DNA of 35,086 bases from Leptolyngbyaceae cyanobacterium T60_A2020_046 (GTDB lineage: Bacteria > Cyanobacteriota > Cyanobacteriia > Phormidesmidales > Phormidesmidaceae): positions 1-35,086 of the forward strand of contig JACYME010000180.1 in NCBI GenBank assembly GCA_015272155.1, given 5' to 3'. Shown piece by piece: positions 26,088 to 27,595 of the stretch. Position numbers and translations under genes: made by a program. The notes under the pieces are model-generated. The model did not search any database. It was not told the DNA's origin and was given only the letters and a program-made list of their open reading frames with translations. How positions within the stretch are numbered: position 1 is the first letter of the stretch; each line of letters starts with the position of its first letter.

Positions 26088-26162
26088 GGATAAGCTGACC
26101 CTGGCTCAAGCCCGATGACCAGACCCCTTGGTAGGATAGAGTCAATCGTGAGTCAACTGCCC

Positions 26163-26750
26163 ATGACCTACACTACACAGGAACTCCTCGAAATCTTGGA
26201 TCGGGAGCTGCGGGCAGCGTGGCGAGGTGAACGGGTGGTGCTGTCCTCCGCCGAACGCCTGGATGATCCGGTGGTGGCCAAGGCGCTGGGCTCTGCCAAA
26301 CTCAGCAAAGTGTTTGCGGTACAAGACTTTCGCGATCAAATTCATCACTATCAGCGGGAACACAACGTTTCAGGGCTCATCTGGCAAACCTGCCGATTTG
26401 GGGGGCGATCTCAGCAGTTTCCAGAACTCCATCCCCAGCTCGCGGCCATTCCCCAAGATAAGGACACCCTGATCGCAGCCAAGGCAGGGGTGATTGCCTT
26501 TTGGCGAGCGGCGATTCCAGGACTGCAACTGTGGCGACCCGGCCCGCCGCCCATCGCGCTGACCCACGAGACCGTCGAAACGCTGATTGCTACGACGGAA
26601 TGGGCAGAGTTGGCCGCCACTCGCGATGAGCTGTACCTGAGTCTATGCTGGGGTAACCCCAAGGAGTGCCATTATGACTGGGCGCGGCCCGAGTCGGGGT
26701 GTGAGCGCATTATTGCCGCGATCGCGGAACCCAGCGCAATCAAGGTATAA
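26163..26750 (+). CDS. Unknown protein next to ccmK3-ccmK4
   Basis: A 195-residue soluble protein that I do not recognise by domain. It begins MTYTTQELLEILDRELRAAW, contains a segment VFAVQDFRDQIHHYQREH and a Trp/Cys-bearing part LIWQTCRFGGR, and ends with WGNPKECHYDWARPESGCERI, in which two cysteines flank a Tyr-Asp-Trp. An earlier in-frame ATG at 26115 would add 16 residues without helix features. The stop is 40 bases before ccmK3 on the same strand, so co-transcription with the shell genes is likely. A carboxysome-related role is inference from position alone. Confidence 0.75.
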   Translation: MTYTTQELLEILDRELRAAWRGERVVLSSAERLDDPVVAKALGSAKLSKVFAVQDFRDQIHHYQREHNVSGLIWQTCRFGGRSQQFPELHPQLAAIPQDKDTLIAAKAGVIAFWRAAIPGLQLWRPGPPPIALTHETVETLIATTEWAELAATRDELYLSLCWGNPKECHYDWARPESGCERIIAAIAEPSAIKV

Positions 26751-26790: not shown

Positions 26791-27105
26791 ATGACAATTG
26801 CGGTAGGGACGATTGAGACACAAGGGTTTCCGGCGGTGTTGGCCGCCGCCGATGCAATGGTCAAGGCGGGCCGTGTCACCCTGTCGAACTATGAGCGGTC
26901 GGAGAGTGGACGCCAGCACGTCTCAGTGCGTGGGCCAGTGGGCGAGGTGCATCGGGCAGTGGAAGCGGGCGTGGCCGCTGCAAATGCCTGCCCCGGCGTG
27001 GCGGAGGTGACCGCCTACGTGGTGATCCCTAACCCCCAAGAAAATGTGGACGCGGTGCTGCCGATTCACTTCATTCCCGCGTCAGAGCCCCATCGCGTGC
27101 TGTAG
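26791..27105 (+). CDS. ccmK3: Carboxysome shell protein CcmK3-like
   Basis: A 104-residue single BMC-domain protein with the family core GFPAVLAAADAMVKAGRVTL at about 12-31. The loop that lines the central pore of the hexamer reads NYERSESGR, unlike the KIGSGR of CcmK1/CcmK2 and the RAGSAR of the next gene. In Synechocystis, CcmK3 and CcmK4 are encoded side by side, CcmK3 has a divergent pore, and it is reported to assemble with CcmK4 into mixed hexamers rather than alone. Gene order, length and pore divergence support CcmK3 here. It lies 40 bases after the unknown gene and 145 before ccmK4. Confidence 0.88.
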   Translation: MTIAVGTIETQGFPAVLAAADAMVKAGRVTLSNYERSESGRQHVSVRGPVGEVHRAVEAGVAAANACPGVAEVTAYVVIPNPQENVDAVLPIHFIPASEPHRVL

Positions 27106-27250
27106 CGATCGCGTTGCTGAATCTGACGACCCATGAAGAATTGACCAGGGACGCTACAGACGATTGTGCCAGGTTTCGGCAGTTGCCACAGGCCCGTACA
27201 ATGAAGGATGGCTTTTTTGTCAAAAACAGGAATTTCTGAGGAGATCGGCA

Positions 27251-27595
27251 ATGCCACAGGCAGTCGGGTCGCTTGAGACCAAAGGATTCCCTCCGGTGTT
27301 GGCCGCCGCGGATGCGATGGTCAAGGCGGGGCGAGTCACGTTGATTGGCTACATTCGGGCCGGGAGTGCGCGGTTCGTGGTCAACATCCGGGGAGATGTG
27401 TCAGAGGTAAAAGCCGCAATGGAAGCTGGGGTCGAAGCGGCCCAAAACTGTCCCGGCGGCGTCCTCGAAACCTGGGTGATTATTCCTCGACCCCATGAAA
27501 ACGTGGTGGCTGTCCTGCCGATTGACTATGACGAGAGTGTGGAGCAGTTCCGTCAGGCGGTTGAACAGCCGCTGTTGCCCCGCGTCAATAACTAA
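27251..27595 (+). CDS. ccmK4: Carboxysome shell protein CcmK4-like
   Basis: A 114-residue BMC-domain shell protein starting MPQAVGSLETKGFPPVLAA, with pore loop YIRAGSARF and the shared WVIIPRPHENVVAVLPIDY strand, which matches CcmK4 of model beta-cyanobacteria as I recall it. The C-terminal tail (EQFRQAVEQPLLPRVNN) is longer than in CcmK1/CcmK2. CcmK4 forms minor hexamers in the shell facets and is thought to tune permeability under changing conditions. The open frame continues 29 codons upstream, but the ATG at 27251 has GAGGAGA nearby as ribosome site and fits the family start. A hairpin with a T-run follows downstream. Confidence 0.94.
   Translation: MPQAVGSLETKGFPPVLAAADAMVKAGRVTLIGYIRAGSARFVVNIRGDVSEVKAAMEAGVEAAQNCPGGVLETWVIIPRPHENVVAVLPIDYDESVEQFRQAVEQPLLPRVNN

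Follow-up and report, generated by a model that had tools for sequence, protein, structure and literature searches.

CcmK3 of a Leptolyngbyaceae cyanobacterium as a probable minority subunit of CcmK4 hexamers with less positive pores

Results

By inspecting the window (the whole 35,086-nucleotide stretch of contig JACYME010000180.1 from Leptolyngbyaceae cyanobacterium T60_A2020_046, assembly GCA_015272155.1) we located two neighbouring genes for carboxysome shell proteins on the forward strand. The adjacency of shell protein genes put forward in the original prediction was confirmed: both open reading frames are present and each encodes a single BMC domain (PF00936) scoring above the Pfam cut-off of 24.5 bits. 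The first gene, ccmK3 (26791..27105, forward), encodes a minor beta-carboxysome BMC-H shell protein of 104 amino acids, assigned from its open reading frame, PF00936 match (76.9 bits), clade and AlphaFold model. It is followed by a spacer of 145 bases (27106..27250, forward), which we scanned for a sigma-70-like promoter and a terminator and in which neither was found. The second gene, ccmK4 (27251..27595, forward; 84.7 bits), encodes a minor beta-carboxysome BMC-H shell protein of 114 amino acids from an ATG start; a TTG start at 27164, given in the open reading frame list, was set aside, the ATG at 27251 being the best start.

CcmK3 and CcmK4 are identical at 58 of 103 aligned residues, and CcmK3 is identical to the two CcmK1/K2 proteins of its own genome at 54/102 and 53/103. 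This genome holds seven BMC matches: the pair lies on contig C13, two CcmK1/K2-type genes lie on contig C239, and the remaining matches are an orphan on C154 and a gene on C239 which we infer to be CcmO-like, as its single frame holds two domains. In sequence searches of the PDB the top match of CcmK3 was 6ner, a synthetic tandem BMC-H fusion, followed by structures of CcmK4, CcmK2 and CcmK1, and the alignment to the solved CcmK4 chains is gap-free until about residue 69. The CcmK3 monomer modelled with AlphaFold (mean pLDDT 92.3, 55-row alignment) has a predicted canonical BMC fold and aligns with CcmK crystal structures, the ten top rows giving Z of 19-20 across 99-102 residues. Its closest relatives among the matches listed are from Nodosilinea/Leptolyngbya. 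The pair is an ordinary ccmK3-ccmK4 satellite locus of a beta-cyanobacterium and, for the window itself, a routine annotation.

Forty bases upstream of ccmK3 is a gene for an uncharacterised protein of 211 amino acids (26115-26750, forward). Its product has no match in Pfam or NCBIfam, its fold model (pLDDT 77) has none in the PDB at E <= 0.001, and phmmer against the PDB returned a single chance-level match (E 0.89). A homologue directly precedes ccmK3, in the same orientation, at 25 other loci, six of which have no ccmK4 in the locus. Among 125 genomes that match CcmK strongly, 109 have a homologue; of the 57 genomes of family f2, probably the alpha-cyanobacteria, none has one. In two genomes (G164 and G198) it is present as stop-riddled remnants. 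We considered the gene as a specific partner of CcmK3 and CcmK4 and rejected this, since 12 of the 16 genomes that lack a CcmK4-level match have it (genomes chosen as CcmK4-poor, with a best E of 6e-35, where CcmK4 itself reaches about 1e-49 or better). Identity with CcmS was likewise rejected, CcmS being a protein of 142 amino acids encoded near the main ccm genes as described in PMC11635287. A literature search for the upstream neighbour of ccmK3 found no report of it.

We compared the pore loops in register with those of the major shell proteins of the same genome. Residues 33-42 read NYERSESGRQ in CcmK3 (26887..26916, forward; placed by sequence, alignment and the pore position published in PMC6788708), GYIRAGSARF in CcmK4 (27347..27376, forward) and GYEKIGSGRV in both CcmK1 and CcmK2. 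The CcmK4 loop matches [IVL]R.GSAR and aligns with an identical loop in crystal entry 2a10. The strings NYERSESGR and YIRAGSARF, originally quoted as occupying the same position, are real but offset by one residue, the former being residues 33-41 of CcmK3 and the latter residues 34-42 of CcmK4. In register, the CcmK3 loop has Y34, E35, S39, G40 and R41 in common with CcmK1/K2 and differs from them by G33N, K36R, I37S, G38E and V42Q; Arg36 and Arg41 are common to CcmK3 and CcmK4. To call the CcmK3 loop charged and larger was therefore an overstatement: G38E (codon 26902-26904, forward) is one bulky charged change, but residue 37 is smaller, Ser against Ile. In this alignment Glu38, an acid among the pore-flanking positions, is the only change near the constriction that is both bulky and charged, whether CcmK3 is set against CcmK4 or against the major shell proteins. 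With this one substitution, the CcmK3 loop stays rather similar to that of the major shell proteins, which does not bear out, as worded, the claim of a pore unlike theirs.

To place the pair among its relatives we used 80 loci, the best 80 of at least 293 confirmed relatives found with the window CcmK3 as query, to which loci from further genomes and 40 further stretches, most of them from other families, were added. These 187 loci yielded 288 unique single-BMC proteins, a set which favours relatives of the window and does not amount to a census. FastTree resolved clades of CcmK3 (n=129, support 0.984), CcmK4 (n=131, support 0.789 in the tree rooted on CcmK1/2) and CcmK1/2 (n=22), six of the 288 (five orphan-type proteins and one cut fragment) being excluded from the class counts. 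The two window proteins fall into the clades of their names, and that of CcmK3 is distinct from those of CcmK4 and CcmK1/2. The CcmK3 class was named by published features and not by a labelled reference sequence; it was seeded by an acid at residue 38 with Asn or His at the edge and then widened to the whole clade, so that 11 of its sequences fail the seed rule. CcmK4 proteins were selected by their GSAR loop, and the invariance of G38-S39-A40-R41 (131/131) is therefore partly by definition, while the monophyly of the selected set is not. The loop difference between CcmK3 and CcmK4 is not chance, as the two fall into clades of their own (129 and 131 unique sequences) with different loops.

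The formal charge of residues 35-39, a count that takes no account of geometry or salt bridges, is −2 in 10, −1 in 90 and 0 in 29 of the 129 CcmK3 proteins, +1 in all 131 CcmK4 and 0 in all 22 CcmK1/K2. Over residues 33-42 it ranges from −3 to +1 in CcmK3 (+1 in 12/129) and is +2 in CcmK4 and +1 in CcmK1/2, so that 'never positive' is true of residues 35-39 only. An acid occupies residue 38 in 119/129 CcmK3 proteins; the other ten, from Acaryochloris, Petrachloros and Alkalinema among others (loci L020, L025, L026, L032, L036 and L039-L043), have Ala or Thr there, in the loops ESCAS, TSCAS and ESCTS. Three of these loci (L039, L041 and L042) have a second CcmK4-type gene downstream. Residues 35-39 occur in 32 distinct versions. 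The detail added to the published picture is that CcmK3 loops, over these residues, are variable yet never net positive in the sampled relatives.

We also examined the shell edge. At the position equivalent to PduA Arg79, CcmK3 of the window has Asn81 (codon 27031..27033, forward) and CcmK4 has the conserved Arg80 (codon 27488..27490, forward). Across the classes the edge residue in CcmK3 is Asn in 125/129 and His in 4/129, arginine being found in 0/129; CcmK4 has the edge arginine in 124/131, and CcmK1/K2 of the same genome keep it. Asparagine in place of the edge arginine has been reported as class-wide in CcmK3 (PMC5853843), and in our alignments this difference is as consistent as that in pore loop charge. 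One CcmK4 clade (seven unique sequences, support 0.937; loci L052, L054, L063, L064, L071, identical in L117, L073 and L080) also has Asn at the edge, so that neither protein of these pairs has the arginine; the account in PMC5853843 describes the loss for CcmK3 only. In L063 and L080 a third BMC-H gene, with the loop YENTDLGR, adjoins the pair. A search of the literature on R79 and capping found nothing further of relevance among the papers listed.

Is the CcmK3 loop drifting or constrained? Shuffling columns over the 129 CcmK3 proteins gave a mean of about 8 net-positive loops, against 0 observed; over the 32 distinct loops about 2 were expected and 0 observed, a difference short of significance (P = 0.079). 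Net charge is less variable among the 32 distinct loops than in the shuffles (variance 0.319 as compared to 0.744, P = 0.0018). Gains were then counted on a CcmK3 tree for which the loop columns had been left out: 13 base gains at residue 36 fell on a background with an acid at 35 and one fell elsewhere, the corresponding tree lengths being 6.59 and 6.28 (P = 0.0012, to be read as uncorrected since several tests were tried on one loop). The matching test at residue 39 gave 7 gains against 0 (P = 0.054). Same-branch changes at 35 and 36 were not above chance (2 against 1.8 expected), and loss of the acid at 35 showed no dependence on a base at 36 (3 against 8, P = 0.18). Since the charge over 35-39 is never positive and base gains at 36 are tied to an acid at 35, the loop looks constrained rather than drifting. 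The pattern can mean either a constraint on net charge or the mere keeping of an acid-35/base-36 pair, as in CcmK1/2.

Same-strand ccmK3 followed by ccmK4 was found in 125 loci (some redundant, with the window counted three times), with a median spacer of 97 bases over these loci, redundant ones included, as compared to 145 in the window. In 20 loci only CcmK3 was seen and in 18 only CcmK4, partly owing to contig ends and locus limits. Sixteen genome handles have a CcmK3 locus without CcmK4 (two of them, G063 and G407, are apparently one and the same genome), and 14 of these hold a CcmK4-level match elsewhere in the assembly; in two metagenome-derived genomes, G400 and G402, the search for such a match found none though CcmK3 is present. 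In the genomes of L019 and L031 (G403 and G405) ccmK3 and ccmK4 are on one contig about 1 Mb and 5 Mb apart, and adjacency is thus not needed for the pair. Sommer 2017 reported strict co-occurrence in 206 of 227 genomes, with separate loci in only eight (PMC5853843).

Co-evolution was tested on 119 unique CcmK3-CcmK4 pairs, for an effective number of about 38. An initial null of four clusters proved too coarse, with 226 of 4500 residue pairs at p <= 0.005. With clade-restricted shuffles at p <= 0.01, a cut of 0.20 gave 174 of 3404 pairs, including 5 of 31 pore pairs (CcmK3-36 with CcmK4-37 among them); a cut of 0.14 gave 34 of 2792 (about 28 expected) with 0 of 21 pore pairs, and a cut of 0.10 gave 92 of 2159 with 0 of 20 pore pairs. 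Since the pore signal is gone in the finer clades, we take co-evolution between CcmK3 and CcmK4 to be unproven, and PMC6788708 likewise reports none.

Elsewhere in the window a ParA ATPase gene (1002-1754, reverse) is followed by a gene for a protein ending in IGWVD (391-about 1155, reverse), which are a probable mcdA-mcdB carboxysome positioning pair. The partner protein ends in IGWVD or VGWAD in 11 of 12 loci (L208-L219, window included), the twelfth frame being cut by the end of its locus. The candidate pair is about 25 kb from ccmK3-ccmK4. The orphan BMC-H paralogue of the same genome (G000:C154:33372-33686, reverse; L220) falls outside the CcmK3, CcmK4 and CcmK1/2 clades and has a Cys at the shell-edge position ('PCP'). 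Matches to it at E <= 1e-18 occur in 11 of 63 genomes of the order, its own included (relatives L221-L230), and all 11 proteins end in a C-terminal WL[DI]D after a variable linker, resembling the C-terminal Trp and acidic carboxysome-targeting motif of McdB described in PMC11321042.

Discussion

A divergent pore, the pairing of the genes, mixed hexamers and the idea of a permeability role are already in print (Sommer 2017; Garcia-Alles 2019). The observation made on the window is correct, if overstated in its wording on the loop, and is a published one met here in a new strain. In Synechocystis PCC 6803, CcmK4 has the pore RAGSAR (2a10), as in the window, and CcmK3 has Glu38 and one extra residue following helix 2 (PMC6788708) and Asn for the edge arginine (PMC5853843), again as in the window; however, Glu38 is followed by Arg39 there and by Ser39 here (PMC6788708). 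CcmK3 of Synechococcus elongatus PCC 7942 has Glu38-Ser39 at the pore and is of the window type (PMC6788708). The 6803 pair has been tested biochemically, and for PCC 7942 mixed hexamers have been reported and the physiology of the double deletion is known. CcmK1 and CcmK2 of the same genome share the BMC domain with CcmK3 but have Gly38 and Ile37 at the constriction, a loop charge of 0 and the edge arginine.

The mixed hexamers invoked for Synechocystis in the original prediction are indeed on record: CcmK3 with CcmK4 forms them mainly at 1:5 and also at 2:4, and CcmK3 alone is insoluble, being recovered only with CcmK4 (PMC6788708). The same report finds that CcmK3 residues alter the modelled pore, namely Glu38 with Arg39 (Synechocystis, Halothece) or Ser39 (Synechococcus 7942), and that lattices of mixed hexamers are poorer. 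By analogy with these strains, the window pair would form mixed hexamers too. With its loops the formal ring charge is +6 for CcmK4 only, +4 at 1:5, +2 at 2:4 and −6 for CcmK3 only. That the pore charge is set by the ratio of the two thus stands in part: the ring charge falls from +6 to +4 or +2, but is not negative at the reported ratios. At realistic ratios the pore would become less positive, towards the neutral sum of CcmK1/K2, and not acidic. Control through the CcmK3:CcmK4 ratio has been proposed from transcript ratios (PMC5853843); an operon as the means of such control is weakened by the genomes in which the genes are far apart.

We suggest, with a good deal of confidence, that at this satellite locus CcmK3 is a minority subunit of CcmK4 hexamers which alters both the pore and the lattice contacts of the shell tiles that it joins. 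CcmK4 would form the hexamer frame, with its Arg36/Gly38/Ser39 pore and a normal edge arginine, and CcmK3 would join it at 1:5 or 2:4, forming no hexamer of its own. Each CcmK3 would put Glu35, Arg36 and Glu38 in place of Ile35, Arg36 and Gly38, which would lower the formal loop charge by two units, narrow the hole and break the six-fold symmetry; an edge arginine would be lost with each as well. Taken together, this would probably give a small set of tiles in which the pores are less positive and partly obstructed and the lattice contacts are weaker. A more specific version, possible but rather doubtful, is that CcmK3 is a conserved diluter of pore charge, residues 35, 36, 38 and 39 varying so that the loop never turns positive, whose dose would step the ring from +6 towards neutral and so set the passage of anions.

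The strongest rival, which competes with the pore part only and to which we give somewhat less than an even chance, is that CcmK3 is mainly a structural modifier which dilutes edge contacts, its pore difference being a by-product of lost constraint, and that CcmK3/CcmK4 hexamers sit at defects, capping the shell or permitting its remodelling. It stays strong since no CcmK3 has the edge arginine (129/129), a loss more uniform than the pore residues 35, 36 and 38, and the diversity of loops, the CcmK4 clade of seven unique sequences that likewise has Asn at the edge, and the poor assembly of mixed hexamers seen by AFM (PMC6788708) also favour it. Without the two genes, maximal CO2 assimilation is roughly 65-75% lower (PMC13181412) and carboxysomes are aggregated with blurred shell edges (PMC13181412, PMC3425506). 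Rae 2012 held the physiology of the double deletion to fit an unclosed shell better than reduced solute transit (PMC3425506). However, the charge of residues 35-39 is held at −2 to 0 despite sequence change, and base gains at 36 occur almost only where 35 is acidic, hence not by free drift. Deletion phenotypes do not tell pore effects from lattice effects.

The clustering of carboxysomes in the double deletion (PMC3425506; PMC13181412), together with the probable mcdA-mcdB pair in the window, might instead point to CcmK3 and CcmK4 acting chiefly in carboxysome spacing, effects on permeability being secondary. We consider this improbable: recruitment of McdB to carboxysomes persists when both genes are deleted, as reported in PMC13181412, and the candidate pair is about 25 kb away. 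Least probable of all, and by a long way short of plausible to us, is a separate gate made of CcmK3 hexamers with an acidic or blocked pore. The predicted canonical fold of the monomer, the negative homology models of CcmK3 hexamers (PMC5853843) and the stability in simulation of one of two CcmK3 homohexamer models (PMC6788708) speak for it, but the Synechocystis protein is insoluble without CcmK4 (PMC6788708) and six Glu38 side chains would presumably come face to face.

What our analysis adds to the published picture is a loop alignment in register with CcmK1 and CcmK2 of the same strain, statistics on loop charge, a test of base gains on a tree and a co-evolution test that gave no proven signal. 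The double mutant is strongly impaired, and the parts of the cited work considered here do not separate roles in the pore, the lattice and spacing. The charge pattern makes the pore effect, by a pore swap, separable from the edge effect, by an edge swap.
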